Assembly: GCA_947372745.1 (NCBI GenBank)
Contig: CANBUY010000004.1
Span: forward strand, 1-64,000
Direction of reading: 5' to 3'
DNA length: 64,000 bases
DNA from: Comamonadaceae bacterium
GTDB lineage: Bacteria; Pseudomonadota; Gammaproteobacteria; Burkholderiales; Burkholderiaceae_C
In this document: positions 20,187 through 36,592 of the stretch, piece after piece
Layout: each line of letters starts with the position of its first letter
Position numbering within the stretch: position 1 is the first letter of the stretch
Notes under the pieces: model-generated
The model's input: only the letters and a program-made list of their open reading frames with translations
The model's database searches: none
What the model was told of the DNA's origin: nothing
Position numbers and translations under genes: made by a program

Positions 20187-20233
20187 AGGTTTCAAGGCGC
20201 CTTTTTTGTGCCTTGGTCCCCTATACTTTGCGA

Positions 20234-20252
20234 ATGAACCAGTTAGTACATT
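20234..20252. promoter_or_regulatory. Candidate TetR operator overlapping the tetR start
   Basis: AACCAGTTAGTACATT (20237-20252) matches AACTAGTTCGTACATT upstream of the TRAP operon (20970-20985) at 14 of 16 positions. The overlap with the start codon would let the regulator block its own transcript. The site also matches the reverse complement of the downstream palindrome at 12 of 14 positions. Confidence 0.5.
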
Positions 20253-20902
20253 CTCCGCGTGCCGCCAAAACAGCGGTCACGTCGCGCACCAACGACCCGG
20301 CCCGCACCATGGCCGGTATTTTGGAGGTCGCCACCACCGAGTTCGCCGACAAAGGCTTGAGTGGCGCCCGCATCGACGAGATTGCTGCGGCCACCCAAAC
20401 CAGCAAGCGCATGATTTATTACTACTTTGGCAGCAAAGAGGGCTTGTATTTGGCGGTGCTTGAGGCGTCTTACCGGCGTATGCGAGAGATTGAAGCTGAA
20501 CTCCACCTGGAAGACCTCGCGCCCGAAGCGGCCCTGCGTCGTTTGGTGGAGTTCACCTTTGACCATCACCGGGGCAACGAGGACTACATCCGCCTCGTGA
20601 TGAACGAAAACATGGCGCGGGGCGTTTACCTGGCGCAAAGCAAAACCATCAAGGGGCTGAACGTGACGGCGATTCAAGCCATTCGTCAACTCTACGACCG
20701 GGGTGTGGCCAGCGGTGAGTTTCGCAGCGGCCTGGACCCGATCGACATTCATGCGTCCATTTCGGCGCTGACCTTTTTTAACGTCTCCAACCAGCACACC
20801 TTCAGTCTGATTTTCAAAGAGGAGGGGCGCTCAGACGAGTCCGTGGCCCTTCGGCGAAGCAACATCACCGAGATGGTGGTTCGTTTTGTATTGGCTATTT
20901 AA
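20234..20902 (+). CDS. TetR/AcrR-family transcriptional regulator
   Basis: A 222-aa repressor-type protein. The helix-turn-helix is seen at ILEVATTEFADKGLSGARID and TSKRMIYYYFGSKEGLY (about 26-72), followed by a ligand-binding domain. ATG 20234 is chosen over an upstream TTG (20213). The start codon lies inside ATGAACCAGTTAGT, a near-copy of the palindrome in front of the TRAP operon (20967-20980), which argues that the protein controls both itself and the TRAP/shikimate-type operon that follows. Confidence 0.9.
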   Translation: MNQLVHSPRAAKTAVTSRTNDPARTMAGILEVATTEFADKGLSGARIDEIAAATQTSKRMIYYYFGSKEGLYLAVLEASYRRMREIEAELHLEDLAPEAALRRLVEFTFDHHRGNEDYIRLVMNENMARGVYLAQSKTIKGLNVTAIQAIRQLYDRGVASGEFRSGLDPIDIHASISALTFFNVSNQHTFSLIFKEEGRSDESVALRRSNITEMVVRFVLAI

Positions 20903-21015: not shown

Positions 21016-21555
21016 ATGGTCGAAAAATTGATTGATGCTTACTGCAATTTCATCAGCTACGTGATTGCTGCCGCACTGGCCGTGATGGTGGTGCTGGTGT
21101 TTGGCAACGTGTTCATGCGGTACGCTTTTAACTCGGGATTTACCGTGTCAGAAGAGTTGTCCCGCTGGTTGTTTGTGTGGTTGACCTTCTTGGGTGCTGT
21201 GGTGGCCTTGCGCAAAAATGCCCATTTGGGCACTGACATGCTGGTGGGCAAGTTGGGTCCGATGGGCAAAAAAATCTGCATGGGTATTTCCCTGTTGCTG
21301 ATGCTTTATTGCCTCTGGTTACTCTTTAAAGGTGCTTATGACCAGGTCATCATCAACTGGACTTCGACCAGCGCAGTGATGGAAATCTCGATGAGCTATT
21401 TTTATGCATCAGGTATGGCATTTGCGATTTTGGGTGCTCCGATTTTGCTGGGCGACCTGTGGCGACTTCTCACAGGCCAAATTGATGACGACCACTTGGT
21501 GCTGATGCAGGAATCAGAAGAAGCCCCGCACGCTGCCCAGGCCGAATCGCACTAA
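21016..21555 (+). CDS. dctQ: TRAP transporter small permease (DctQ type)
   Basis: A 179-aa protein with four hydrophobic helices. The DctQ hallmark is FNSGFTVSEELSRWLFVWL (about 38-56) followed by GAVVALRKNAHLGTDML. GAGGAGAGA lies 6 bp before the ATG. It is the first gene of the TRAP-aroQ-aroE-type operon, downstream of the candidate TetR operator. It is unrelated in detail to the first TRAP system of the window (opposite strand, different neighbours), so the cell has at least two separate TRAP transporters here. Confidence 0.92.
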   Translation: MVEKLIDAYCNFISYVIAAALAVMVVLVFGNVFMRYAFNSGFTVSEELSRWLFVWLTFLGAVVALRKNAHLGTDMLVGKLGPMGKKICMGISLLLMLYCLWLLFKGAYDQVIINWTSTSAVMEISMSYFYASGMAFAILGAPILLGDLWRLLTGQIDDDHLVLMQESEEAPHAAQAESH

Positions 21556-21571
21556 AAGATAGAGAACTAAC

Positions 21572-22849
21572 ATGACAATCACCATTTTTCTGGGTTCCAT
21601 GCTGGTCGCGATGGCCTTAGGCGTTCCAATCGCATTTTCCTTGCTGCTTTGTGGCGCTGCACTTATGTGGCACATGAGCATGTTTGATGCGCAAATTCTG
21701 GCGCAAAACGTGATGGAGGGCGCCAACAGCTTTCCACTGCTGGCCGTACCTTTCTTCATGCTGGCCGGTGAGATCATGAATGCCGGTGGCCTCTCGCGCC
21801 GCATCGTCAACTTTGCCATGGCCCTCGTGGGTCACGTCAAGGGCGGCTTGGGCTACGTCACCATTGTGGCGGCCGTCATCATGGCGTCGCTGTCAGGTTC
21901 TGCCGTGGCGGATGCTGCAGCTTTGACCGCCTTGTTGCTGCCCATGATGGTGGCGGCTGGGCATGACCGGGCTCGTTCGGCGGGCCTGATTGCCTCTGCC
22001 GGCATCATTGCCCCGATCATTCCGCCCAGCATTGGCTTTGTGATTTTTGGTGTGGCCGCCAATGTGTCGATCTCCAAGCTCTTTATGGCGGGCATTTTCC
22101 CCGGTGTCTGGTTGGCAGTGTCCTTGGTGTTTACCTGGTGGTACTTGGTCCGCAAGGAAGCGATTGCCCCGCCTCCCCGCAAAAATGCCACTGAAGTGAT
22201 GGAGTCTTTGCGCCTGGCCACTTGGGCTTTGGTGCTGCCCTTCATCATTGTGTTTGGCTTGAAATTTGGCGTGTTCACGCCAACTGAAGCCGCCGTGGTG
22301 GCGGCGGTTTATTCTTTGTTTGTCTCGGTTTTTATTTACAAAGAGCTCAACTTCAAAAAGCTGGTGCCCTTGTTTGTGTCGGCGGCGGTGACGTGCTCGG
22401 TCGTCATGTTTTTGGTAGCCTCCGCCATGGTGTCGGCTTGGCTGATTGCAGTGGCCAATTTGCCCGCCCAAGTGGTGGCTTTGCTGCAACCCTTGCTGGA
22501 TAGTCCCAAGTTGTTGATGTTGGCCATCATGGTGCTCACGATGGTGGTGGGAACGGCGCTGGACATGACCCCCACCATTTTGCTGCTCACCCCCGTGCTG
22601 ATGCCGGTGGTCAAGGCGGCCGGGATTGATCCGGTTTATTTTGGCGTGATGTTCATCATCAACAACGCCATTGGTTTGATTACACCGCCTGTGGGCACGG
22701 TGCTCAACGCGGTAGCAGGGGTGGGCAAGATCGGTATGGACGAGGTGACCAAGGGCGTTATCCCGTTCATGATTGCCCAGTTCGCCATCATGTTTTTGAT
22801 GGTGGCCTTTCCACAGCTGGTCATGGTGCCCGCTCGCTGGTTCTATTAG
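21572..22849 (+). CDS. dctM: TRAP transporter large permease (DctM type)
   Basis: A 425-aa membrane protein with about 12 hydrophobic segments. Characteristic blocks are PFFMLAGEIMNAGGLSRRIV (about 63), SLSGSAVADAAALTALLLP (about 108) and NNAIGLITPPVGTVLN near 370. It starts 16 bp after dctQ. The receptor gene follows after 97 bp, an order (Q-M-P) different from the P-Q-M order of the first TRAP system. Confidence 0.94.
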   Translation: MTITIFLGSMLVAMALGVPIAFSLLLCGAALMWHMSMFDAQILAQNVMEGANSFPLLAVPFFMLAGEIMNAGGLSRRIVNFAMALVGHVKGGLGYVTIVAAVIMASLSGSAVADAAALTALLLPMMVAAGHDRARSAGLIASAGIIAPIIPPSIGFVIFGVAANVSISKLFMAGIFPGVWLAVSLVFTWWYLVRKEAIAPPPRKNATEVMESLRLATWALVLPFIIVFGLKFGVFTPTEAAVVAAVYSLFVSVFIYKELNFKKLVPLFVSAAVTCSVVMFLVASAMVSAWLIAVANLPAQVVALLQPLLDSPKLLMLAIMVLTMVVGTALDMTPTILLLTPVLMPVVKAAGIDPVYFGVMFIINNAIGLITPPVGTVLNAVAGVGKIGMDEVTKGVIPFMIAQFAIMFLMVAFPQLVMVPARWFY

Positions 22850-22946
22850 ATTAACAAAGGCAGCCGGGCGTGTTGGGTACGCCACGACCGGACGGCCATT
22901 AATAGTTGCGTACAGCCATTTCATTTGCCTAATTCAGGAGACAACC

Positions 22947-23954
22947 ATGAAACGTTTAGTTCTTAAATCGATCGCTGCAGCCGTCGCTCTGGCCGCTTTC
23001 GGTGCCGCGCAGGCCCAAGACATCAAAGAGCACACCATCAAGTTTGCCCACCAAAACCCGGCAGGTCACCCGATCGTGATGGGCATGGAAAAATTTGCCG
23101 AAATCGTCAAAGCCAAATCTGGCGGCAAGATCAAGGTCAATCTGTTCCCCGGTGGCGTGCTGGGCAGCGACCAGGCCAATGTGTCGGCCCTGCAAGGTGG
23201 CACGCTGGAGATGGTGGTTTTAAACACCGGTATTTTGGCCAGCCAGGTTAAAGAGTTGTCGATTTTTGACTTCCCTTTTCTGTTTGCCAACACCAAGGAA
23301 GCCGATGCGATTGTGGACGGCCCGGTGGGCAAAAAAATGCACGCCAAGCTCGAAGAGAAAGGCATCGTCGGCTTGTCTTACTGGGAGCTGGGTTTTCGCA
23401 ACATCACCAACAGCAAGCGCCCCCTCAACAAGGTGGAAGACATTGCAGGCCTGAAATTGCGCGTCATTCCTAACCCCATCAACGTGGACTGGGTAAAAGC
23501 CCTTGACGCCAACCCCACGCCGCTGCCTTTCCCTGAGGTTTACGCCGCCATGGAACAAAAAGCGATTGATGGCCATGAAAACCCAGTGACCGTGATCAAT
23601 GCCAACAAGTTTTATGAAGTACAAAAGTACCTGGCCATCACCAACCACCAGTACAACCCGCAGTCCGTCATCATCAGCAAAAAATTCTGGGACACACTCA
23701 ATGCGGCTGAGAAGAAATTGATTGACGATGCGTCCGACGAAGCCACCAAGTACCAGCGCGTACAAAACCGTGCAGTCATGACCACGGCTCTGGACAATGT
23801 AAAGAAAAACGGCATGGTGGTGACCGAGTTCTCAGCGGCTGAAGCGGCTAAATTTCGTGAAAAAATGAAGCCGGTGATTGCCAAGTATTCGGCCAATGTG
23901 GGCGAAGCGACTGTCAACGAAATGATGGCGGAGCTCGCCAAACTGCGTAAATAA
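22947..23954 (+). CDS. dctP: TRAP transporter periplasmic receptor (DctP type)
   Basis: A 335-aa receptor with a signal peptide ending at AQAQ (about residue 24). DctP features include IKFAHQNPAGHPIVMGMEKF, GVLGSDQANVSALQGGTLEM and the LKLRVIPNPINVDWVKAL block, whose arginine (LRVI) normally binds the ligand carboxylate. TCAGGAGACAACC is a strong ribosome binding site. It is followed by a terminator hairpin before the aroQ-type gene. The neighbouring enzymes suggest a cyclic hydroxy acid related to quinate or shikimate; this is inference. Confidence 0.92.
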   Translation: MKRLVLKSIAAAVALAAFGAAQAQDIKEHTIKFAHQNPAGHPIVMGMEKFAEIVKAKSGGKIKVNLFPGGVLGSDQANVSALQGGTLEMVVLNTGILASQVKELSIFDFPFLFANTKEADAIVDGPVGKKMHAKLEEKGIVGLSYWELGFRNITNSKRPLNKVEDIAGLKLRVIPNPINVDWVKALDANPTPLPFPEVYAAMEQKAIDGHENPVTVINANKFYEVQKYLAITNHQYNPQSVIISKKFWDTLNAAEKKLIDDASDEATKYQRVQNRAVMTTALDNVKKNGMVVTEFSAAEAAKFREKMKPVIAKYSANVGEATVNEMMAELAKLRK

Positions 23955-24010: not shown

Positions 24011-24051
24011 GAAACTTGTCCCGCGCACCGGGTCAGCACCTAAAGGCCACT

Positions 24052-24501
24052 ATGAAAATTCTCGTGCTCAACGGCATCAACCTCAATATGTTTGGCAAAC
24101 GTGACCCGAAGCAATACGGCACGATCACGCTCGACGAGATCAACGCCAGCCTGTCGGCTCTGGGGCAAGAGCTTGGCACCCAAGTGGAATGCTTTCAGAC
24201 CAACCATGAAGGCGCGATGTGCGAGCGCATTCATCAGGCTTATGCCGATGGCGTGGATGCCGTGCTGATCAACGCGGGCGCCTGGACGCACTACAGCTAC
24301 GGTATTCGTGATGCACTGGCGATTTTGACCTGCCCGATTGTGGAGGTGCACATGTCGAACATCCATGCGCGTGAGCCGTTCCGCCACGTCTCGGTCTTTG
24401 GTGAAATCGTCATGGGTCAGATTTGCGGTTTTGGCGTGGTCAGCTACTTGCTGGGCTTGCGCGCTGGCGTATCAGCGGCGAAGGCAAAGGGCGCTAAATA
24501 A
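24052..24501 (+). CDS. aroQ: Type II 3-dehydroquinate dehydratase homologue (AroQ-like)
   Basis: A 149-aa protein of normal type II dehydroquinase length; the start at ATG 24052 gives the usual MKILVLNGxNLN beginning. Family catalytic residues are retained: tyrosine in KQYGTITL (about 25), asparagine and histidine in INAGAWTHYS (about 74-83), histidine and serine in EVHMSNIH (about 100-107) and arginine in AREPFRH. Differences from typical enzymes are NGINLN instead of NGPNLN and NAGAWTHYSYGIRDAL instead of NPGAYTHTSVALRDAL. The gene joins its neighbour by TAATG overlap. Its place in a catabolic operon with a transporter argues for a degradative, not biosynthetic, dehydroquinase; the substrate could be an analogue. 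Confidence 0.85.
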   Translation: MKILVLNGINLNMFGKRDPKQYGTITLDEINASLSALGQELGTQVECFQTNHEGAMCERIHQAYADGVDAVLINAGAWTHYSYGIRDALAILTCPIVEVHMSNIHAREPFRHVSVFGEIVMGQICGFGVVSYLLGLRAGVSAAKAKGAK

Positions 24502-25337
24502 TGATCAATGGCCATACCGAGCTGATTGCCCACATCGGTTTCCCCACCCACGCCTTCAAGGCGCCCATGATTTACAACCCCTGGTTCGTGAAAGCCGGTG
24601 TTAATGCCATTGTGGTTCCCATGGGCTGTCAGGCGCAGGACTACCCCGATTTTTTACGTTCGGTGTTCAAGCTAAGCAATATTCGGGGCGCTCTCATCAC
24701 CATGCCGCACAAGGTCACGACTGTTGGCTTGCTTGATGAGGTGTTGCCCACCGCGGCCATTGCAGGGGCGTGCAATGCGGTCAAACGCCTACCGAATGGT
24801 CGCTTGCAAGGCGACATGTTTGATGGCGAAGGCTTTGTGCGCGGCGTACTGCGCAAAGGCCTGGTCTTGAAGGGCGCCCGTGCGCTGGTGGTGGGCAGCG
24901 GTGGCGTAGGTTGCGCTATTGCCGCTTCATTAGCCGCAGCTGGCGTGCTTGAAATGGATTTGTTTGATGTGCATGAGGCATCGGCCAACGGCCTGGCGCA
25001 GCGCCTGTTGCAACATTACCCGCAAATGACGGTTCGCACAGGCCGCAAAGACCCTGCAGGATTTGATTTGGTGGTTAATGCCACCCCGATGGGTATGGAT
25101 GAAGGCGACGATATGCCGATGGATGTCTCGCGCCTTGAGGCTCGGACCTTTGTTGGTGAAGTGGTCATGAAAACAGAGATGACCGCTTTTCTGGCCGCTG
25201 CCCATGCCCGCGGTTGTCGGGTGCAGGTGGGCTCAGACATGCTGTTTGAGCAAATCCCTGCCTATTTGGAATTTTTTGGTTTCCCCAGCACCACGCCTGA
25301 CGTTTTGCGTTCCGTGGCCCAGCTTAGCTACAAGTAA
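24501..25337 (+). CDS. AroE-family dehydrogenase without the SxS motif (copy 1)
   Basis: A 278-aa shikimate-dehydrogenase family protein. The catalytic Lys (ITMPHK, about 67-72) and Asp (GDMFDGEGF, about 108) and the nucleotide loop VVGSGGVGCA (about 130) are present, as are GACNAV and VNATPMGM. The first motif, normally HSxSP, reads FPTHAFKAPMIYN, so both serines that hold the shikimate carboxylate are lost. NTDG is replaced by MFDG. The nearest relative here is the second copy at 30964, which has the same two changes. It overlaps the aroQ-type gene by 1 bp. It is likely an NAD(P)-dependent dehydrogenase of a cyclic hydroxy acid; calling it aroE would be misleading. Confidence 0.85.
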   Translation: MINGHTELIAHIGFPTHAFKAPMIYNPWFVKAGVNAIVVPMGCQAQDYPDFLRSVFKLSNIRGALITMPHKVTTVGLLDEVLPTAAIAGACNAVKRLPNGRLQGDMFDGEGFVRGVLRKGLVLKGARALVVGSGGVGCAIAASLAAAGVLEMDLFDVHEASANGLAQRLLQHYPQMTVRTGRKDPAGFDLVVNATPMGMDEGDDMPMDVSRLEARTFVGEVVMKTEMTAFLAAAHARGCRVQVGSDMLFEQIPAYLEFFGFPSTTPDVLRSVAQLSYK

Positions 25338-25348
25338 GGAGAAGAGAC

Positions 25349-26230
25349 ATGACCCTGCCTGCCCCCCATCGTGAAGCCGTGCCCGAGATGCCCAATCGGC
25401 TGGGCATTCATGGTATTGAGTTTATTGAGTACGCCACCAGCCGCCCACAAGCTTTGGGACAGGTGCTGGAAAGCATGGGCTTTCGGCCCGTGGCCCGGCA
25501 CCGGTCGCGAGAAATCGTTTTGTACCGCCAGGGCTCGATGAATTTAGTGGTCAATGCGCACCCGGACGACGCCCGTGTAAGCGCCACCGTGGGCGGCAAC
25601 CCTGTGATCTCCAGCGTCGCGTTTCGCGTGCAAGATGCGCTGAAGGCGCACACCCGTTGCATGGAGTTGGGTGCCTGGGATGTGCCTAGTCACGTTAAGG
25701 CGATGGAGCTGCATATTCCCGGCATTCGGGGGCCGGGCGGTAGCCGCTTTTACTTTGTGGACCGCTGGCAAGAGTTCTCCATTTACGACATCGACTTTGT
25801 GCCGATTCCCACGGTCGACCCTGCGCCACCTGCACTGGCTGGCATGAGCTACTTTGGCTTGGTTCAATACATTGGTGCGGCCCGCAGTGCGGACTGGGTG
25901 TCATACTTTGAGCGCATGTTCGACTTCAACCTGATTCCGGATGAGCAACGTTTTGGCATATTGCCCAAAGGCACGCTGATGCGCAGCCCGTGTGGCCAGT
26001 TTTTATGGCAACTCATTGAGCCCGACCCGATGATGGACGTCACCGAATCCACCGAATGTTTGCAGCGCTTGGGCATTGGTGTGCCCGATGTCAACGCTGC
26101 TGTGACCCTGCTCAAGGCCCGTGGTGTTGAGTTTGTGGAGTCGGCCCATTTGCACCCCGAAGACCGGGGCGCGCTCACGCGCACGGTGCTGGGCTCGGTG
26201 TCATTTGAGTTGGTTCACCAAGCTGAATAG
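25349..26230 (+). CDS. VOC/4-hydroxyphenylpyruvate-dioxygenase-like protein
   Basis: A 293-aa protein with two glyoxalase-type modules (about 8-140 and 155-290). It resembles HPPD and the C-terminal half of the bacterial dehydroshikimate dehydratase QuiC1. The usual iron ligands look degraded: by my alignment the first His is replaced (YFGLVQYI), the second His is Arg (LQRLGIGVPDV), and only the last Glu (VSFELVHQ) remains. Oxygenase activity is therefore doubtful. AAGGAGAAGAGAC lies before the ATG. It directly precedes the TIM-barrel gene, 9 bp away, suggesting the two form a complex equivalent to the fused QuiC1. Confidence 0.78.
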   Translation: MTLPAPHREAVPEMPNRLGIHGIEFIEYATSRPQALGQVLESMGFRPVARHRSREIVLYRQGSMNLVVNAHPDDARVSATVGGNPVISSVAFRVQDALKAHTRCMELGAWDVPSHVKAMELHIPGIRGPGGSRFYFVDRWQEFSIYDIDFVPIPTVDPAPPALAGMSYFGLVQYIGAARSADWVSYFERMFDFNLIPDEQRFGILPKGTLMRSPCGQFLWQLIEPDPMMDVTESTECLQRLGIGVPDVNAAVTLLKARGVEFVESAHLHPEDRGALTRTVLGSVSFELVHQAE

Positions 26231-26239
26231 GAGCTCAAC

Positions 26240-27124
26240 ATGAACATGCTTGAAGGCTTCGGGATGGACACCATCACCCTGGCGGGGCCGTTGGAGGCCA
26301 AGCTGGCCGCCATGTCAGCCGCCGGCTTCACCCAGGTGATGCTGAGTGCGCGTGACATGGTGGGCCACCCCGGTGGGCTCAATGCAGCGGTGGAGGCGGT
26401 GCGCATGAGCGGTTTACGCCCCACCGGTTTTCAGGTGCTGCGCGACTTTGAGGGGCTCTCGGGCCACCTGCATGAGTACAAGATGGACATCGCCAAATCG
26501 ATGCTGGAGATGTGCGCCGCGCTGGACAGCAAGGTCTTGTTGGTGTGTTCGTCCACCTCACGCCATGCCACCCAAGACCTCGATTTGATCGCCCAGGATT
26601 TGCGCAAGCTGGCCATGTTGGCCGTGCCGCTGGGCATCAAGGTGGCTTATGAGGGCTTGTCCTGGGGGCGCACGGTCAATGAGTTCACCACCTCTTGGGA
26701 TGTGGTGTGCCGCGCTGACTGCCCTAATTTGGGCATCGGGCTGGATTCGTTTCATATTTTTGCCGCCAAAACGCCGCTCGACAGCATTGAAGAGCTGGAC
26801 CCTGAGCGCATTTTTCTGGTGCAACTCTCGGATTTCATGTGGCAAGACACCCCCAGTTTTGAAGAGCGCATGGCCACGGCCCGCACCTTTAGGGTGTTTC
26901 CGGGTGAGGGCGTGCACAGCGACGAGCTGGCTGATCTGGTTTTGCGTCTGGACAAAATAGGCTACCGCGGCGACTACAGCTACGAGGTGTTCAACGACGA
27001 CTACCAGCAATTGCCTCTGCATGTGGTGGCCGAGCGTGCCCGCCGCAGCACGATGTGGTTAAGCGAAGACGTGCTGCACCGTTCGCCACCTCTGCCAGAA
27101 TGGGTGTCCCAAACACGACCTTAA
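26240..27124 (+). CDS. 3-dehydroshikimate-dehydratase-like sugar phosphate isomerase/epimerase family protein
   Basis: A 294-aa TIM barrel of the AP-endonuclease-2 family. Acidic and polar metal ligands expected at barrel strand ends are visible: Glu in VAYEGLSWG (about 138), Asp in GIGLDSFHIF (about 169), Gln in FLVQLSDFMW (about 194) and Glu in YSYEVFND (about 248). These match the pattern of the N-terminal half of QuiC1-type dehydroshikimate dehydratases, which make protocatechuate. AATAGGAGCTCAAC precedes the ATG. In QuiC1 this domain is fused upstream of the HPPD-like domain; here the order is reversed and the genes are separate. Confidence 0.8.
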   Translation: MNMLEGFGMDTITLAGPLEAKLAAMSAAGFTQVMLSARDMVGHPGGLNAAVEAVRMSGLRPTGFQVLRDFEGLSGHLHEYKMDIAKSMLEMCAALDSKVLLVCSSTSRHATQDLDLIAQDLRKLAMLAVPLGIKVAYEGLSWGRTVNEFTTSWDVVCRADCPNLGIGLDSFHIFAAKTPLDSIEELDPERIFLVQLSDFMWQDTPSFEERMATARTFRVFPGEGVHSDELADLVLRLDKIGYRGDYSYEVFNDDYQQLPLHVVAERARRSTMWLSEDVLHRSPPLPEWVSQTRP

Positions 27125-30037: not shown

Positions 30038-30838
30038 TTAAAGCACAGAGCGCAAGGTCTGTGCAGTCTCTGTGATGGCTGGCACCAGCTTTTCAATAAT
30101 TGCCTGATGCGGCCAGGATGCCACCTGAAACGTGATGCTGACAGCCGCCACTGACTTGCCATGACGGTCCTTCAAAGTGACCGCCACGCCACCCAAGCCC
30201 ACATCCAGAAATTGCTCTGTAATCCAGTAGCCCAATGATCGGGCTGCCTGCACGTTGGCTATGAATTGACTGGCCTCCATGGCGGCATGGGGTGTAAAAC
30301 TGGCAAAGTCATGCACCAATACCCACTCTTCTAGCGCTTTCTCGCTGAACGCTGATAACAACATCACACTGGGCGAAACGGTGTGGGCCGGCACTCTGGC
30401 TCCGGCATAAAAGCCAATGGAGACCACTCTTGGGCTGTTCGAGCGGGCAATGTAAACCACCTCGTGGCCATCAAGAATGCTGACGTTGACGGTTTCCCCG
30501 GTGAGCATCGACAAGCGCTGAATGAAGGGCTGCACCAGACGCGGCAAGCGTGCTGAACCGAGGTAGCTTTGCCCCAGTCTCAGCACCCTTGGAGAGAGCC
30601 AAAACAGCTTGCCATCCGTCTGTGCATAGCCAAAATGACACAGACTGAGTAAGTGACGTCGCGTCGCAGTTCGCGGAATGCCGGTGCGAGCCGACACCTC
30701 GGCCAGGGTCATGCGGGAATGGTCATCATCGAACGATTCAATCACTTTCAAACCTCGACCCAGGCCGACAATCAAATCACGCGGATCGATGGGGAACTGA
30801 GCCGTCTCGGCGGGCGCGTGTTGAGTTAATGAGGTCAT
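30038..30838 (-). CDS. IclR-family regulator of the PcaR/PobR type
   Basis: A 266-aa regulator. A winged helix-turn-helix spans about 23-90 (LIVGLGRGLKVIESF, MTLAEVSARTGIPRTATRRHL) and an effector domain follows (about 95-260). The GLGRGLKVIESF and GYAQTDGKLFWLSPRVLRLG blocks are characteristic of the PcaR/PcaU/PobR branch, which senses protocatechuate, 4-hydroxybenzoate or related acids. It is divergent from an AroE-like gene across 125 bp with two CCG-N5-CGG operators, so it most likely controls that gene and the ABC importer after it. Confidence 0.9.
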   Translation of the reverse strand: MTSLTQHAPAETAQFPIDPRDLIVGLGRGLKVIESFDDDHSRMTLAEVSARTGIPRTATRRHLLSLCHFGYAQTDGKLFWLSPRVLRLGQSYLGSARLPRLVQPFIQRLSMLTGETVNVSILDGHEVVYIARSNSPRVVSIGFYAGARVPAHTVSPSVMLLSAFSEKALEEWVLVHDFASFTPHAAMEASQFIANVQAARSLGYWITEQFLDVGLGGVAVTLKDRHGKSVAAVSITFQVASWPHQAIIEKLVPAITETAQTLRSVL

Positions 30839-30871
30839 GGCAAGACGATATATAGGACAAACCCCTGAAGT

Positions 30872-30909
30872 ATCCGCTAATCGGATGGAGTTGTCCGATA
30901 AGCGGACAA
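30872..30909. promoter_or_regulatory. Two IclR-type operators in the divergent promoter
   Basis: ATCCG-CTAAT-CGGAT (30872-30886) and TTGTCCG-ATAAG-CGGACAA (30891-30909) are two dyads with the same CCG-N5-CGG core and 5-nt spacer, centred 21 bp apart. The second has perfect 7-bp arms. A further GGACAA half-site lies at 30855-30860. Their place between the iclR and AroE-like genes fits binding by the adjacent IclR protein. Confidence 0.75.
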
Positions 30910-30925
30910 AAAGATGATTCTACGG

Positions 30926-30954
30926 TTGACGCTCCTTGTCTCGCATCCTAGACT
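30926..30954 (+). promoter_or_regulatory. Promoter of the AroE-like/ABC operon
   Basis: TTGACG (30926-30931), a 17-bp spacer and TAGACT (30949-30954) form a good sigma-70 promoter. The start codon at 30964 is only 9 bp beyond the -10 box and no ribosome binding site is visible, so the message may be leaderless or nearly so. The IclR operators lie just upstream of -35, a position suiting activation. Confidence 0.6.
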
Positions 30955-30963
30955 CCACCCGAA

Positions 30964-31923
30964 ATGTCAAACGCACCTCATAATTTCAACGCAGCTTCGG
31001 TCACGGGCTCAACCGATGTCTACCTGATTCTGGGTGATCCGGTGGAGCAGGTTCTGGCGCCTGAGATCTTTAACCCCCTGTTTGCCCTGCTGGGCATCAA
31101 CGCTGTGTTGGTGCCTGTTTGCGTGGCGCCTGAGCATTTGTCAGAGTTTGTTAAAACGGCTTTTCTGGCTAAAAACGTGAAGGGCCTGTGGGTCACCATC
31201 CCACATAAAACCCCTGTCATGGCGGTGCTGTCCCGCTGCAGCGAACTGGCTTTGAGGGCAGGGGCGGTCAATGCAATCCGCCGTCATGCCGACGGTAGCC
31301 TGGAAGGCGGGTTGTTTGATGGCGAAGGCTTGATCGCCTCGCTGGACTATTTCCAGATGCCCTACACCGCGAAAAAAGTACTCATCATTGGGGCGGGCGG
31401 GGCTGCCGCCGCCATTGGCGCCTCGTTGGCTTTGGGTCCGCGGGCTGCCGCCGAGATGGCGTTTTATGACCCGACGCCCGCCAAAGCTCAAGACCTTGCC
31501 CATCATTTGACCCACCCCGGTAGTGCTTACGTGCGTGCAGCGCACAGCAGCGACCCCAGCGGGTTTGATCTGGTGATCAACGCCTCGCCTCTGGGCTTAA
31601 AGCCCACCGACCCCCTTCCTTGCGATGTCTCTCGCTTAGACGCGCATGCCGCCTTGATGGACATCGTGATGAAAAATCAACCGACGCCCGTGGTGCGTTC
31701 GGCCCGGGCGCGTGGACTGAATGGCCAGCCTGGTTTCGAGATGATGATTCAGCAGGCGGCGCTCTATCTGGAGTTTTTCGGTTTCAACGAGGCTGCTCAA
31801 CTCGTCCGGGCCGATGCTACTTTTTTACGTGAAAAAATTTACCCGATGGCTCTGCACGCCGAGATTCAACGCCCCGTGCAGGCGGCCAACCTTTTTGTCA
31901 GCGTACCCGTTCCCACTTATTAA
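30964..31923 (+). CDS. AroE-family dehydrogenase without the SxS motif (copy 2)
   Basis: A 319-aa shikimate-dehydrogenase family protein. The catalytic Lys is in WVTIPHK and the Asp in GGLFDGEG; the nucleotide loop is IIGAGGAAAA. As in copy 1, the substrate motif is altered: GDPVEQVLAPEIFN in place of GxPxxHSxSPxxHN, so both serines are missing, and NTDG is replaced by LFDG. A C-terminal extension of about 30 residues follows the GFEMMIQQ helix. It is the first gene of a run leading into a complete ABC importer (26 bp to livK), so it probably oxidises an imported quinate- or shikimate-like compound. Confidence 0.85.
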   Translation: MSNAPHNFNAASVTGSTDVYLILGDPVEQVLAPEIFNPLFALLGINAVLVPVCVAPEHLSEFVKTAFLAKNVKGLWVTIPHKTPVMAVLSRCSELALRAGAVNAIRRHADGSLEGGLFDGEGLIASLDYFQMPYTAKKVLIIGAGGAAAAIGASLALGPRAAAEMAFYDPTPAKAQDLAHHLTHPGSAYVRAAHSSDPSGFDLVINASPLGLKPTDPLPCDVSRLDAHAALMDIVMKNQPTPVVRSARARGLNGQPGFEMMIQQAALYLEFFGFNEAAQLVRADATFLREKIYPMALHAEIQRPVQAANLFVSVPVPTY

Positions 31924-31949
31924 CTTAGAAAACCCGAGGAGACTCTCTC

Positions 31950-33086
31950 ATGCAAAAACGATTCGCTCTTAAATTAATAGCTGCTTGTGCTATTTTGGCG
32001 AGCTCTACAGCCTCATTTGGTCAAGAGGTCATCAAGATTTCCAACCTGGTTGAACTCTCTGGCGGCGGCGCATCAGCCGGCACCGCTTTCAAAAACGGCG
32101 TTGAGTTGGCGGTCAAGGAAGTCAACGCCGCCGGCGGCATTTTGGGTAAAAAAATTCAGACGACCACTTCAGACACTCAATCCAACCCCGGCGTGGCCAA
32201 AGGTCTGACGCAAAAAGCGGTGGATGATGGCGTGTTTGCCATCTTTGGCCCGGTTTTTTCAGGCTCCATCATGGTCAGTATGGCCGAAAGCCGCAAAGCC
32301 GAGGTGCCCAATTTCACGGGTGGCGAGGCGGCCTCCATCACGGCCCAAGGCAACCCCTACATTTTTCGAACCAGCTTTGGCCAATCCACCAGCTTCCCCA
32401 AAGTGGCCCGTTACATCAATTCGAAAGCCAAAACTTTGGCCGTTATTTATGTGAACAACGACTTCGGCAAAGGCGGTCGTGACGCCATTACCAAGTTGCT
32501 GGAGGGCTCGCCCACCAAGATCGTGGCAGACATCTCCACCGATGCCGGTCAGGTTGACTTTTCAGCTGCTGTATTGAAGGCCAAGCAAAGCAACGCCGAT
32601 GCCGTGTTTGTTTACACCAACGAGGAAGAGTCAGCCCGCGCCCTGCGTGAGTTGCGCAAGCAAGGCTGGACCAAGCCCATCATTGGCGAGACCACACTGA
32701 CCGGACAAAAGGTGATTGAGCTCGCCGGTGACGCCGCCAATGGCGCACTGGCCCACGTAGGCCTGACAGTGGATGCCCCCCAGTTCAAAGCATTCGGTGC
32801 CAAGTACCAGCAAGAGTACAAGGCCGTGTCTGACCACAACGGTATCAAAGGTTACACCGGTGTTTACATTTTGAAAGCCGCCATTGAAAAGGCCGGCAAG
32901 CTCGACCGCAAGGCCGTCGCAGCAGCCTTGAAAAACGCCAGTTTCAGCGTCAAACAGACCCCTGGCCTGTTGCTGGATGTGTCGTTTGACGACAAAGGCG
33001 ACATGGACCGTGAGAGCTTCATGGTCGAAGTGAAGGGCGGTCACCAGGTGGTGGTGGAAACGTTGCCAGCACTGGGCAAAAAATAA
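31950..33086 (+). CDS. livK: ABC transporter substrate-binding protein (LivK family)
   Basis: A 378-aa periplasmic receptor of the branched-chain/hydrophobic amino acid transporter (HAAT) family. The signal peptide ends near ASFGQ (about residue 25), and is partly encoded by a copy of the dispersed repeat. Family features include IKISNLVELSGGGASAGTAF, GGILGKKIQTTTSDTQSNPG and IYVNNDFGKGGRDA. CCGAGGAGA precedes the ATG. HAAT receptors in this setting often bind aromatic or alicyclic carboxylates; the neighbouring AroE-like enzyme and PcaR-type regulator point that way. Confidence 0.93.
   Translation: MQKRFALKLIAACAILASSTASFGQEVIKISNLVELSGGGASAGTAFKNGVELAVKEVNAAGGILGKKIQTTTSDTQSNPGVAKGLTQKAVDDGVFAIFGPVFSGSIMVSMAESRKAEVPNFTGGEAASITAQGNPYIFRTSFGQSTSFPKVARYINSKAKTLAVIYVNNDFGKGGRDAITKLLEGSPTKIVADISTDAGQVDFSAAVLKAKQSNADAVFVYTNEEESARALRELRKQGWTKPIIGETTLTGQKVIELAGDAANGALAHVGLTVDAPQFKAFGAKYQQEYKAVSDHNGIKGYTGVYILKAAIEKAGKLDRKAVAAALKNASFSVKQTPGLLLDVSFDDKGDMDRESFMVEVKGGHQVVVETLPALGKK
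31969..32020 (+). repeat. Dispersed ~42-nt repeat inside the livK signal peptide
   Basis: Core 31979-32020: AGCTGCTTGTGC, 14 variable bases, CTACAGCCT, CATTTGG. It matches the uvrD copy at 32 of 42 positions, and both are read in the same frame (ala-ser-ser at GCGAGCTCT, then ser-phe-gly at TCATTTGG). Here it encodes IAACAILASSTASFG, the hydrophobic and cleavage parts of the signal peptide. Confidence 0.65.
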
Positions 33087-33097
33087 GCGGTGATTCA

Positions 33098-33160
33098 AAC
33101 GGGCCGAGCCTGTTATCAGGCCCGTTGTTGATCTCATTGCCCGCCCCATGACAGGCTCGG
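33098..33160 (+). repeat. Overlapping inverted repeats between livK and livH
   Basis: AACGGGCC/GGCCCGTT (33098-33105 with 33119-33126) makes an 8-bp stem. CCGAGCCTGT/ACAGGCTCGG (33104-33113 with 33151-33160) makes a 10-bp stem whose left arm overlaps the left arm and loop of the first. The two hairpins cannot form together. They fill the 93-bp gap after the receptor gene; a role in mRNA stability or in lowering permease expression is likely. Confidence 0.6.
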
Positions 33161-33179
33161 GGCTTGCGCAGGAACTCCC

Positions 33180-34055
33180 ATGACCGATTTTCTACAACTG
33201 TTCTTAAGTGGCTTGGCCACGGGCGCCATCTACGGGTTGGCCGCTTTGGGCTTTACGCTGCTATGGCAAGCCAGTGGCACCATCAACTTTGCACAAGGCG
33301 AGTTTGTCATGCTGCCCGCCTTCATGATGATTGGCTTCATGGCGCTGGGCGCCCCGCTGGTGGTGAGCTTTGTGTTCTCGGTGGTGCTGGCCGTGGTCGT
33401 TTTGGGCTGGGTGTTCAAGCGCGGCATTGTCGACCCGTTGTTCAAGTACGGCATGATGCCTATCGTGGTGGCCACCATTGGTTTGTCCATTGCCATGCGC
33501 AATGGCCTGCGGGCGGGTTACAGCGCTGAGGCGCATCCTTTCCCCAGCCTATTTGCAGACAAGATTTACAACATTGCAGGTGTCACCGTGACGCTGTCAG
33601 ACGTGGGCACCTTCGTATTGGCCTTGGCCCTGGTGTTGGCTACGCAAGCCTTCATGACCAAAACTGTCACGGGTCGGGCCATGCAGGCCGTGGCGCAAAA
33701 CACCGAGAGCGCCTCGGTGCTGGGCATCAACGTGCCACGCATGATTTTTTACGCATTTGCCATCAACGCCGTGCTCGCCGTGGCTGCCGCCTTGTTGGTG
33801 ACGCCCACCTACCTGGCCAAATTCGATATGGGCGAGTCGTTGGGAAACAAGGCATTTTTTGCCGCCATCATCGGGGGTTTCAACAACTCACGCGGTGCGC
33901 TGTTGGGCGGCCTGATTGTGGGCGTGTGCGAGAACCTGGCCGCCGCCTACATTTCACCTGCCTACAAAGACGCAGTGGCACTCGTCATCTTCATGGTGGT
34001 TATTTTGTTCAAGCCGCAAGGGCTGCTGGGCAAAAAAGAAGAACGCAAGGTTTGA
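33180..34055 (+). CDS. livH: ABC transporter permease (LivH family)
   Basis: A 291-aa inner-membrane permease of the HAAT importer. About eight hydrophobic segments are visible, with the LivH-type beginning FLSGLATGAIYGLAALGFTL and the FAQGEFVML motif (about 41-49), and the cytoplasmic coupling region MQAVAQNTESASVLGIN (about 165-181). A GCAGGAACTCCC sequence precedes the ATG. It partners the LivM protein encoded 7 bp downstream. Confidence 0.94.
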   Translation: MTDFLQLFLSGLATGAIYGLAALGFTLLWQASGTINFAQGEFVMLPAFMMIGFMALGAPLVVSFVFSVVLAVVVLGWVFKRGIVDPLFKYGMMPIVVATIGLSIAMRNGLRAGYSAEAHPFPSLFADKIYNIAGVTVTLSDVGTFVLALALVLATQAFMTKTVTGRAMQAVAQNTESASVLGINVPRMIFYAFAINAVLAVAAALLVTPTYLAKFDMGESLGNKAFFAAIIGGFNNSRGALLGGLIVGVCENLAAAYISPAYKDAVALVIFMVVILFKPQGLLGKKEERKV

Positions 34056-34062
34056 TGTTGCC

Positions 34063-35061
34063 ATGAAGAAAATTACTCTTATTTCCATAGCGCTCTGCGC
34101 AGGGCTGATGTTGCTTGCACCTCAGTTTCTTAAAAATTACGGTATTTACCTGCTGACCTATTGGCTGATCTTCATCATCGCCACCATGGGCCTGAATTTG
34201 ACAGTGGGTTACGCCGGTCAAAAATCTTTGGGCCACGCTGCTTTCTTTGGCATTGGTGCCTACACCGTCGCCATTTTGATGAAAGTCGGCTTCAGCTTCT
34301 GGCTGGGTTTGCCCGCAGCGGCGCTCATCTGCTTTGTTGTGGGAATTTTGCTAGGCTTTCCGGCCCTGCGGGTGCAGACCATTTATCTGGCCTTTGCCAC
34401 CCTGGGTTTTAACACCGCCATCTGGCTGGTGATGCGCAATGAAGAGTGGCTCACCGGGGGCACCTTTGGCATCAATAACATTGCCCGACCTTCGCTGTTT
34501 GGCTTTTCGCTGGAGGGTAATCTGGCTTATTACTACTTCACGCTGGGCGTCACAGTGTTGATGGCTTTGCTGCTTTGGGGCTTGCTGCGCAGCCCGTGGG
34601 GCAAAGCCTTTACGGCTCTGCGGGACAACCCCATTCGGGCCGAGAGCCTGGGGGTGGACATTCAGACCTACACGTTGCTGAGCTTTGCCATTGGGGCGGT
34701 TTATGCGGGTATTGCTGGTGCGCTATTTGCCTCATTGGTTCAATTTATCGAGCCCGCGCCTTTCACCGTAGGCGCCTCCATCATGATGTACCTGATGGTG
34801 GTGGTGGGCGGGCCTGGTTACTTCCTGGGCCCCGTGTTAGGTGCTGCGGTAGGCGTGATTTTGCCGGAGTGGCTGCGCTTTGCCCAAGCCTGGTATCTGT
34901 TTATCTTTGGTGCGGCCGTGGTCCTCTTGATGATCTGGCTGCCCGATGGCTTGCTCAGCATCCCTGACCGATTGAAAGCCAAACGCCAGTCCAAACTCGA
35001 CTCCGCAGCGCGTGCCGCCGCCGGGCAATCCGCCGCTAAAAACCTGGGAGCCCAGCCATGA
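34063..35061 (+). CDS. livM: ABC transporter permease (LivM family)
   Basis: A 332-aa permease with about ten hydrophobic segments. The LivM features are MGLNLTVGYAGQKSLGHAAF (about 38) and the coupling helix ALRDNPIRAESLGVD (about 185). The start at ATG 34063 is used because longer alternatives would overlap livH by more than 100 bp. The C-terminus ends in an Ala/Lys-rich tail. It overlaps livG by 4 bp (ATGA). Confidence 0.93.
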   Translation: MKKITLISIALCAGLMLLAPQFLKNYGIYLLTYWLIFIIATMGLNLTVGYAGQKSLGHAAFFGIGAYTVAILMKVGFSFWLGLPAAALICFVVGILLGFPALRVQTIYLAFATLGFNTAIWLVMRNEEWLTGGTFGINNIARPSLFGFSLEGNLAYYYFTLGVTVLMALLLWGLLRSPWGKAFTALRDNPIRAESLGVDIQTYTLLSFAIGAVYAGIAGALFASLVQFIEPAPFTVGASIMMYLMVVVGGPGYFLGPVLGAAVGVILPEWLRFAQAWYLFIFGAAVVLLMIWLPDGLLSIPDRLKAKRQSKLDSAARAAAGQSAAKNLGAQP

Positions 35062-35846
35062 CCCACCCCCACCACCATGACCGCGCCGTGGGTCAACCTG
35101 TCCTTCAAGTGACCGGGCTTAAAAAAGCTTACGGCGCCATTCAAGCCGTTGGCGGCGTCAGCTTTCAGGTCATGCCGGGCGAAATATTTGGGGTCATCGG
35201 CCCCAACGGCTCGGGTAAAACCACGCTGTTTAATAGCATGCTGGGCCAGATCACGCCCGATGCCGGAAAGATTGAACTCAACGGCGAAGACGTGACCTCC
35301 TGTGGGCCACTTGAACTCAACCGCCGCGGTGTCGGGCGCACCTTCCAGACGCTGCAGGTATTTGGCAAGATGACGGTGCGCGACAACCTGATCGTGGCTG
35401 CCCAAGAGCACTCCGGTACGATGTTCAGCCGCATGTTCGCCCCCAGCGACTCGGGGTTGGGCGCCAAGGCAGACGCGCTGATTGACCAGTTCCGCATCCG
35501 CCATGTGGCCGACAAGAAAGCCGGTGAGTTGTCTTACGGTCAGCAAAAGCTGGTCGACATTGCCATGGCTTTCATGAGCGAGCCCGACCTGGTTTTGCTG
35601 GATGAGCCCTGCGCTGGTGTTAACCCGAGTCTTGTGGGGGGCATCAGCACGCTGCTGAAGGAACTCAACCGCAACCCGAAGATCGGCAAAAAAAGCTCCT
35701 TCGTCGTCATTGAGCACAACATGGACTTTGTGATGGACCTGTGCCACCGCATCATGGTGATGGTGGAGGGGAAGGTGATGGCCATTGGCACGCCGGCCCA
35801 GATTCGGGCCAATAAACAGGTGCTGGACGCCTATCTGGGAAGCTGA
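35058..35846 (+). CDS. livG: ABC transporter ATP-binding protein (LivG family)
   Basis: A 262-aa ATPase. Walker A is GPNGSGKTT (about 51-59), the signature LSYGQQKLVDIAMAF is at about 156, and Walker B is LVLLDEPCAGVNP (about 178). The long insert between Walker A and signature and the IEHNMDFVMDLCHRI switch segment are typical of LivG. ATGA overlap with livM indicates coupled translation. Confidence 0.95.
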   Translation: MTHPHHHDRAVGQPVLQVTGLKKAYGAIQAVGGVSFQVMPGEIFGVIGPNGSGKTTLFNSMLGQITPDAGKIELNGEDVTSCGPLELNRRGVGRTFQTLQVFGKMTVRDNLIVAAQEHSGTMFSRMFAPSDSGLGAKADALIDQFRIRHVADKKAGELSYGQQKLVDIAMAFMSEPDLVLLDEPCAGVNPSLVGGISTLLKELNRNPKIGKKSSFVVIEHNMDFVMDLCHRIMVMVEGKVMAIGTPAQIRANKQVLDAYLGS

Positions 35847-35848
35847 TT

Positions 35849-36592
35849 ATGTCGGAAGAAACCTGTATTGAATTTGTTGATGTGGTGGCGGGCTACAAGG
35901 ATTTCATGATCCTCAATAACCTGTCTTTCAAAGCCAAGCGCGGCACCATCACGCTCTTGCTCGGGCCAAATGGCGCCGGGAAATCAACGGTGCTGAAAAC
36001 CCTCTTTGGCCTGTTGAAGCCGCGTCAGGGCCAGATATTGCTTAATGGCACGGATGTCAGCGGCGCCACCCAAAAATCCCTGCTGGCGCAAGGCATTGCT
36101 TTTGTGCCGCAAGGGCGCAATCTGTTTGGCCAGCTCACGGTCTATCAAAACCTTGAACTCGGTGGCATCACGCTGGGCATGAAGACCACACACGAGCGTA
36201 TTCCTGAGGTGCTGGAATTTTTTCCCCGTGTCAAGGAACGCATGAATTCGATGGCTTCCGCCTTGTCGGGCGGTGAGCAAAAGCAGCTTGAAATTGGCCG
36301 CGCCTTGTTGCTGCGCCCCAAGGTGTTGTTAATTGACGAGCCTTCCATTGGTCTGTCACCCTTGGTGGTGCAAGACGTGTTCCGCTTATTGCGCAAGCTG
36401 GCCGACCAGGGCACCACAGTGCTGATGGTGGAGCAAAACGTCAAGAGCGCCTTGAAGATTTCAGACGAAGCGATTGCGCTGGAGTCCGGCCGACTGGTAT
36501 TGCAAAAACCAGCGTCTGAGCTGCTGGCTGATCCGCACATCGAACGCCTGTTTTTAGGCGGGGCGCATGCCGGCGCAGGCACCACCGTTTAA
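35849..36592 (+). CDS. livF: ABC transporter ATP-binding protein (LivF family)
   Basis: A 247-aa ATPase and second nucleotide-binding subunit of the HAAT importer. Walker A is GPNGAGKST (about 38-46), the signature LSGGEQKQLEIGRAL is at about 141 and Walker B is VLLIDEPSIGLSP (about 163). It starts 2 bp after livG and ends the SBP-H-M-G-F operon. The set is complete, so a functional importer is expected. Confidence 0.95.
   Translation: MSEETCIEFVDVVAGYKDFMILNNLSFKAKRGTITLLLGPNGAGKSTVLKTLFGLLKPRQGQILLNGTDVSGATQKSLLAQGIAFVPQGRNLFGQLTVYQNLELGGITLGMKTTHERIPEVLEFFPRVKERMNSMASALSGGEQKQLEIGRALLLRPKVLLIDEPSIGLSPLVVQDVFRLLRKLADQGTTVLMVEQNVKSALKISDEAIALESGRLVLQKPASELLADPHIERLFLGGAHAGAGTTV

Follow-up and report, generated by a model that had tools for sequence, protein, structure and literature searches.

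Two adjacent genes of the window, i.e. of the whole stretch of 64,000 nucleotides that was analysed, probably specify a 3-dehydroshikimate dehydratase (DSD) consisting of two separate proteins, a TIM barrel that would carry out the dehydration and a relative of 4-hydroxyphenylpyruvate dioxygenase (HPPD), hereafter HPPDL, that has lost its iron site and would play a structural role. The pair is found in operons of the quinate/shikimate type, in which the one-chain DSD QuiC1 also takes its place. The first-pass annotation had placed the HPPD-like gene first and the barrel gene second, 9 bp apart, and the coordinates of the two open reading frames, both complete and on the + strand, confirm this layout (293 aa ending with TAG at 25349-26230, then 294 aa at 26240-27124). 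The operon runs in the order TetR regulator, TRAP transporter, AroQ, AroE-like protein, HPPDL, barrel and aldo/keto reductase:

20213..20902, + strand: TetR-family regulator, first gene of the operon (family profile match)
21016..23954, + strand: TRAP transporter DctQ/DctM/DctP, three genes (matching Vitreoscilla plasmid genes are annotated TRAP transporter)
24046..24501, + strand: type II 3-dehydroquinate dehydratase, AroQ (profile match)
24501..25337, + strand: shikimate-dehydrogenase-like protein, AroE1 (profile match below the NCBIfam cut-offs)
25349..26230, + strand: HPPDL gene, 293 aa (HPPD relative without two His iron ligands)
26231..26239, + strand: intergenic gap, 9 bp
26240..27124, + strand: DSD-type TIM barrel gene, 294 aa
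27148..28149, + strand: aldo/keto reductase, the next gene downstream (family profile match)

The family profile search identifies the product of the second gene as a xylose-isomerase-like TIM barrel whose closest counterpart among the solved structures is the N-terminal half of QuiC1 (PDB 5hmq, 1.3e-39, 139 bits); the solved relatives found in the same PDB search include IolI, and AsbF is absent among the matches at E 0.01. The cut-off of 1200 of the NCBIfam model NF042435 is reached neither by the barrel (157.5 bits) nor by HPPDL (76.9 bits), a shortfall attributable to the fact that this is a one-chain cut-off, hardly reachable by a two-gene form. The Glu/Asp/Gln/Glu metal set that had been ascribed to the barrel is borne out by the alignment to QuiC1, in which the ligands correspond to Glu138, Asp169, Gln195 and Glu249. 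The accessible part of PMC7442255 lists ten active-site residues of QuiC1, and nine of these ten are identical in the window barrel, the sole change being that of Ser206 to Ala, a position also occupied by Ala in 13 of the 18 QuiC1s that come from the bacterial family of the window. The following positions were assigned from the alignment and from that residue list:

26651..26653, + strand: barrel Glu138 (QuiC1 Glu134), metal ligand
26744..26746, + strand: barrel Asp169 (QuiC1 Asp165), metal ligand
26753..26755, + strand: barrel His172 (QuiC1 His168), active site
26822..26824, + strand: barrel Gln195 (QuiC1 Gln191), metal ligand
26891..26893, + strand: barrel Arg218 (QuiC1 Arg210), active site
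26984..26986, + strand: barrel Glu249 (QuiC1 Glu239), metal ligand

These residues are conserved throughout the barrels encoded as separate genes (split barrels). Over 75 aligned rows, in which the window is counted twice and from which the divergent L070 and L109 and the third-type L144 and L147 were excluded, the counts in QuiC1 numbering are 74 for R64, 71 for E134, 74 for D165, 75 for H168, 73 for Q191, 71 for R210 and 71 for E239. The third type of barrel, represented by L144 (genome G178) and L147 (genome G136), occurs singly, is 32% identical and has DSD-like metal residues with Glu replacing Gln191.

The product of the first gene matches the Pfam Glyoxalase_5 profile, i.e. the N-terminal domain of HPPD (1.5e-41), and scores 74 bits with TIGR01263, whose cut-off is 277. 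Among PDB sequences true HPPDs are its best matches (1cjx, 8e-37, 130 bits), that with the C-terminal half of QuiC1 5HMQ being weaker (71 bits). An AlphaFold2 model of HPPDL based on 12 aligned sequences (pLDDT 66.8, pTM 0.73), used as query in a single comparison with the PDB, has the HPPD fold, with a Z of 23.1 over 262 residues and an rmsd of 3.5 Å with respect to Pseudomonas HPPD 7x8e, a Z of 21.7 with 1CJX and of 20.9 with the second half of QuiC1. The suspicion that two of the three HPPD iron ligands have been lost is substantiated by the alignment: His161 corresponds to Gly170 and His240 to Arg240, and only Glu322 is kept, as Glu287.

25856..25858, + strand: Gly170 codon at the HPPD His161 site (G in 76/76 HPPDL; H in 16/16 HPPD and 42/42 QuiC1 C-domains)
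26066..26068, + strand: Arg240 codon at the HPPD His240 site (R in 76/76 HPPDL; H in 16/16 HPPD and 35/42 QuiC1 C-domains)
26207..26209, + strand: Glu287 codon at the HPPD Glu322 site, kept (E in 76/76 HPPDL, 15/16 HPPD and 39/42 QuiC1 C-domains)

The 76 HPPDL rows contain the window twice and leave out the truncated L009 and L013 as well as the sequence of genome G197, which an in-frame TAG divides into two pieces. Since the same Gly/Arg/Glu pattern is kept in the relatives, it is, to judge from the alignment, not a sequencing accident. Furthermore, a median of 7 residues follows the last-ligand Glu in HPPDL compared to 38 in the 16 HPPDs, and the last two ligand sites are separated by a median of 47 residues instead of 82, i.e. 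about 35 have been lost. In HPPD the C-terminal segment closes the active site. The loss of both His, of this segment and of the ~35 residues jointly indicates that the iron site of HPPDL is gone. On the other hand, the dN/dS ratio of HPPDL is ~0.03-0.08 with respect to four relatives, dS being near saturation in these comparisons; by these ratios purifying selection on HPPDL is strong, and the protein should therefore be functional.

The association of HPPDL with the barrel is no rarity of the window genome. HPPDL (>330 bits) is present in 67 of the 200 sampled genomes of the same family, the window's included, and in all 67 it is immediately followed downstream by the barrel, one of the pairs being interrupted by the end of a contig. 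Named carriers are Rhodoferax, Limnohabitans, Polaromonas, Sphaerotilus, Achromobacter and a Rhodocyclaceae MAG, and the pair is also borne by plasmids of Vitreoscilla filiformis and Massilia putida, in whose public records HPPDL is annotated as 4-hydroxyphenylpyruvate dioxygenase, a label that is most likely wrong. The Massilia putida plasmid (L193:1-9739) carries consecutive genes for AroQ, shikimate dehydrogenase and QuiC1, followed after 5 kb by the pair, where the two genes overlap by 4 bp, the barrel metal site is intact and an MFS transporter and a porin lie alongside. In the class, the threshold of E 1e-55 is passed by only two of 369 genomes, that of the window and another belonging to the same family. 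In the phylum, a barrel relative occurs in 51 of 299 genomes: as a split barrel in five (the window's included), as a lone barrel in one, as a short lone-like sequence in G667 and within frames of at least 598 aa, the size of QuiC1, in 44, of which 24 supplied sequences used as QuiC1. QuiC1 was counted in 19 of the 200 family genomes (in G104 by a partial match), and its sequence was taken from 18 of them.

The distance between HPPDL and barrel, computed for 74 pairs (the window's included) with start codons assigned by a rule of our own, has a median of 7 bp, is at most 35 bp in 70 pairs and becomes a 4-bp ATGA overlap in 13; such short gaps suggest translational coupling of the two genes. 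In the window the two open reading frames lie in one frame separated by a single TAG, and fusion or read-through was considered and rejected, since the frames are mixed across the 74 pairs, in which HPPDL stops at TGA in 61 cases, at TAA in 7 and at TAG in 6. Long open frames of 500-680 aa that resembled fusions were also discarded, the gene coordinates showing separate genes. A lone barrel (45% identical) with no HPPDL nearby occurs in genome G020 (L129:5907-6803), where it sits between AroE2 and a further gene, presumably that of an MFS transporter.

The genes surrounding the pair resemble those surrounding QuiC1. AroE and/or AroQ are found near 62 of the 78 split loci, among which the window is present twice, and near 14 of the 18 QuiC1 loci, for which shorter flanks were compared; AroQ is near 36 of the split loci, and neither AroE nor AroQ is nearby in 16, several of which are cut by contig ends. 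As to transport, the TRAP gene DctM lies near 36 of the 78 split loci and LivK, of the Liv-type ABC transporter, near 21, and the aldo/keto reductase accompanies the pair in just five, the window's included. In a tree of 39 AroE1 rows the neighbours of QuiC1 and those of the pair interleave, with four label changes, at least two of which are forced by the branches starred in the tree. The labels are nevertheless partly clustered, the four changes comparing with a mean of 6.6 after shuffling and a number as low being obtained in 4-5 of 500 shuffles, which indicates that swaps between QuiC1 and the pair were few. We take this common AroE1 lineage as the best evidence that QuiC1 and the pair would perform the same step.

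The two Ser positions of shikimate dehydrogenase bind the carboxylate of the substrate. Of the 41 AroE1 rows, 40 have Phe at the first of these two positions; both catalytic residues, Lys and Asp, are retained in 74 of the 75 AroE rows, the last one having a gap. The two AroE-like enzymes of the window may use something other than plain shikimate, and the lack of the first carboxylate-binding Ser in the AroE-like partners implies that the substrate of the pathway could be a relative of shikimate. Concerning the fate of the product, the host genome contains LigA, the α subunit of protocatechuate 4,5-dioxygenase, according to the profile PF07746, which matched none of 14 control genomes and is thus without a positive control; PcaH was not found in this genome, which is 86% complete, with TIGR02422, a profile that matched four control genomes. 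The window holds two divergent shikimate-dehydrogenase-like genes, at 24501-25337 and 30964-31923. The second belongs to a region (30038-36592) in which a PcaR/PcaU-like IclR regulator is divergent from it and from an ABC operon that we take, from the look of the sequences, to be of the Liv type; similar IclR/AroE-like/Liv-type genes precede the HPPDL-barrel pair in some relatives.

According to the mechanism that we propose, quinate or shikimate would be imported and converted by the AroE-like enzyme and AroQ of the operon to 3-dehydroshikimate, a substrate that would be of plant origin; the barrel, using a divalent metal bound to Glu138, Asp169, Gln195 and Glu249, would dehydrate it to protocatechuate, destined to 4,5-cleavage. 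HPPDL would be a separate iron-free structural subunit that binds the barrel and aids its oligomerisation and stability without effecting any oxidation. This role is the one put forward for the C-terminal half of QsuB in the accessible part of PMC7442255, according to which QsuB deprived of its HPPD half is active, 80% monomeric and changed in Km, kcat and inhibition; a dioxygenase role of that half was considered there, and turnover of protocatechuate by QsuB was sought and not seen. The partner would not be strictly needed for the chemistry, since the barrel of G020 lacks HPPDL and the barrel half of QsuB works alone. AlphaFold2 applied to the joined read-through pair (16 aligned rows) gave a model of too low confidence (pTM 0.42, pLDDT 56.9) for an interface to be read from it.

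A particular situation is that of the 11 genomes possessing both QuiC1 and the pair. In six the barrel is intact, and in five (G022, G150, G052, G168 and G194) a metal ligand is changed, compared to one of the 55 genomes without QuiC1 (Fisher p 0.0003), the count covering 66 of the 67 genomes, the window's included, without G074, in which the end of a contig truncates the barrel; the single counter-example is G017 (L068), where the barrel metal site is changed without QuiC1. A tree-aware test (65 rows, without G197 and G074) recognised three events and, among independent pairs, two for, none against and four with no difference (p 0.5); the link between barrel decay and the presence of QuiC1 is suggestive only. 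The changed split barrels L070, L109, L080, L116 and L142, all from these five genomes with QuiC1, are accompanied by an intact HPPDL and have intact frames, and these could possibly be pseudoenzyme pairs. The dN/dS ratio was dismissed as proof of relaxed barrels, being 0.41 and 0.56 in decayed same-genus pairs and 0.31-0.49 in three of eight intact pairs, for which HPPDL gives 0.49-0.69; the decayed pairs stand out only when the dN of the barrel is divided by that of HPPDL (2.3 and 2.5 in two same-genus comparisons vs 0.3-1.6 in the eight intact pairs). Genome G197, which also has QuiC1, is the one whose HPPDL (L126:6930-7760) is broken by the in-frame TAG.

That HPPDL outlasts the catalytic site of the barrel in the decayed pairs leaves room for a second role of this protein, and its persistence beside decayed barrels is left unexplained by a purely structural partner. 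It could be envisaged that HPPDL is a sensor or a catalytic partner that binds protocatechuate or an intermediate, or uses another metal, as suggested by the invariance of Gly/Arg/Glu over the 76 rows, by its retention in the five genomes whose barrels have lost metal ligands and by the altered product inhibition of QsuB without its HPPD half (accessible part of PMC7442255); we consider this improbable, since HPPDL retains no iron ligand set, its C-terminal segment is gone and, according to the same source, the protocatechuate turnover sought with QsuB was not seen. Doubt may also be cast on the substrate, in that the barrel could act, as an isomerase or a dehydratase, on another cyclic polyol acid or on a sugar in a different pathway. 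The conservation in the barrel of the metal and substrate residues of QuiC1, the vicinity of QuiC1 and of the pair to the same AroE1 lineage and the occurrence of AroQ near 36 of the 78 split loci make this unlikely, even though IolI is among the solved relatives of the barrel, Phe replaces the first usual Ser in 40 of the 41 AroE1 rows, some loci have a Liv-type ABC transporter as their sole neighbour of note and in Massilia putida the pair is accompanied by a complete QuiC1 operon and has an MFS transporter and a porin as neighbours.

As to the origin of the pair, the first-pass annotation regarded it as a QuiC1 split in two with reversed order of the parts. What stands of this proposal is the DSD-type barrel with an HPPD-like neighbour in an operon of the quinate/shikimate type; the split origin fared badly, in that the barrels form separate clades and the N-terminal half of HPPDL is nearer to HPPD. 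Indeed, in a quick tree with long branches, for which 29 split barrels were sampled in addition to L070 and L109, the 42 N-domains of QuiC1 are separated from the split barrels by a branch with an SH-aLRT of 100, the sampled split barrels form a clade of their own (support 97) and the lone barrel of G020 is placed between the two clades on a long branch. The N-terminal half of HPPDL has a mean identity of 50.8% to the 16 family HPPDs, compared to 31.9% to the C-domains of QuiC1.

The trees of the HPPD-fold part are less univocal. A careful tree gives a three-way split between HPPDL, the family HPPDs and the QuiC1 C-domains with L226. In the full-length quick tree, built without L213 (a QuiC1 C-domain), L210 (identical to L002) and L225 (on a very long branch), HPPDL, the QuiC1 C-domains and L226, a Caballeronia HPPD, are set apart from the rest by a branch with support 95, the grouping of HPPDL with the QuiC1 C-domains alone having support 38. 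When HPPDL is constrained to group with five HPPDs from its family, the likelihood is better than that of the quick tree by 23.7 log units over the full length (p 0.87) and by 1.0 log unit over the N-half (p 0.55); in the AU test on the N-half the grouping of HPPDL with the QuiC1 C-domains has p = 0.47, and neither grouping is rejected. Overall, the origin of HPPDL seems to lean towards HPPD. With the barrel clades apart and the N-half of HPPDL nearer to true HPPD, the pair looks less like the product of a recent gene split than like a separate two-gene lineage, for which HPPD was perhaps recruited a second time.

A fuller version of this history, which we entertain as a tentative possibility, is that an HPPD-fold partner was gained twice, once as the C-terminal fusion seen in QuiC1 and a second time in the form of an obligate upstream gene stemming from a Burkholderiales HPPD, whose iron site then turned into the invariant Gly/Arg/Glu; its probability is lowered by the support of 95 with which the full-length tree groups HPPDL with the second half of QuiC1. 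Should it be true, the job of the partner would never have required dioxygenase chemistry. The converse scenario, in which an ancestral two-domain DSD was divided into two genes, these later exchanged places and the iron site of the HPPD half was subsequently lost, accounts for the same two folds and the same type of operon and agrees with that full-length grouping and with the AU value of 0.47; the separation of the QuiC1 barrels from the split barrels in a clade supported at 100, the identities of 50.8% and 31.9% and the better scores (23.7 and 1.0 log units) obtained with the own-family HPPDs speak against it, and we deem it possible but rather doubtful.

The pair fits no known DSD class exactly, the closest being the two-domain DSD. 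Like QuiC1 of Pseudomonas putida (PDB 5HMQ) and QsuB of Corynebacterium glutamicum, it combines the residues of a DSD barrel with an HPPD-fold part, and the QuiC1 genes of the bacterial family of the window lie in the same kind of operon; it has the active-site residues of this class, but is not a single chain and does not fall in the QuiC1 clade. In QuiC1 and QsuB one chain bears the barrel first and the HPPD part second, whereas here there are two genes, the HPPD-like one being first. Moreover, the iron ligands are mostly kept in the 42 aligned QuiC1 genes (H 42/42, H 35/42, E 39/42), whereas HPPDL lacks both His and the C-terminal segment. With HPPD (1CJX, 7X8E) HPPDL has in common the overall fold and, in the N-terminal half, 51% identity to the 16 family members; unlike HPPD, with its His/His/Glu and C-terminal segment, it lacks two ligands, that segment and ~35 residues of the second half. 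The single-domain DSDs AsbF and fungal Qa-4, compared here by their description in the accessible part of PMC9324987, have the barrel on a chain of its own as in the pair, but no HPPD-like partner figures in that description. No account of a DSD made of two gene products, one of them HPPD-like, was recognised in the literature searched, which covered few subscription papers.

The finding bears on the role of the HPPD-like half of bacterial DSDs, of which the pair offers a widespread natural version that is separate and devoid of an iron site, so that the question of what this half does becomes amenable to simple co-expression experiments. In addition, HPPDL flags a set of proteins that are annotated as HPPD and very probably are not, and the small barrel enzymes are candidates for the production of protocatechuate.
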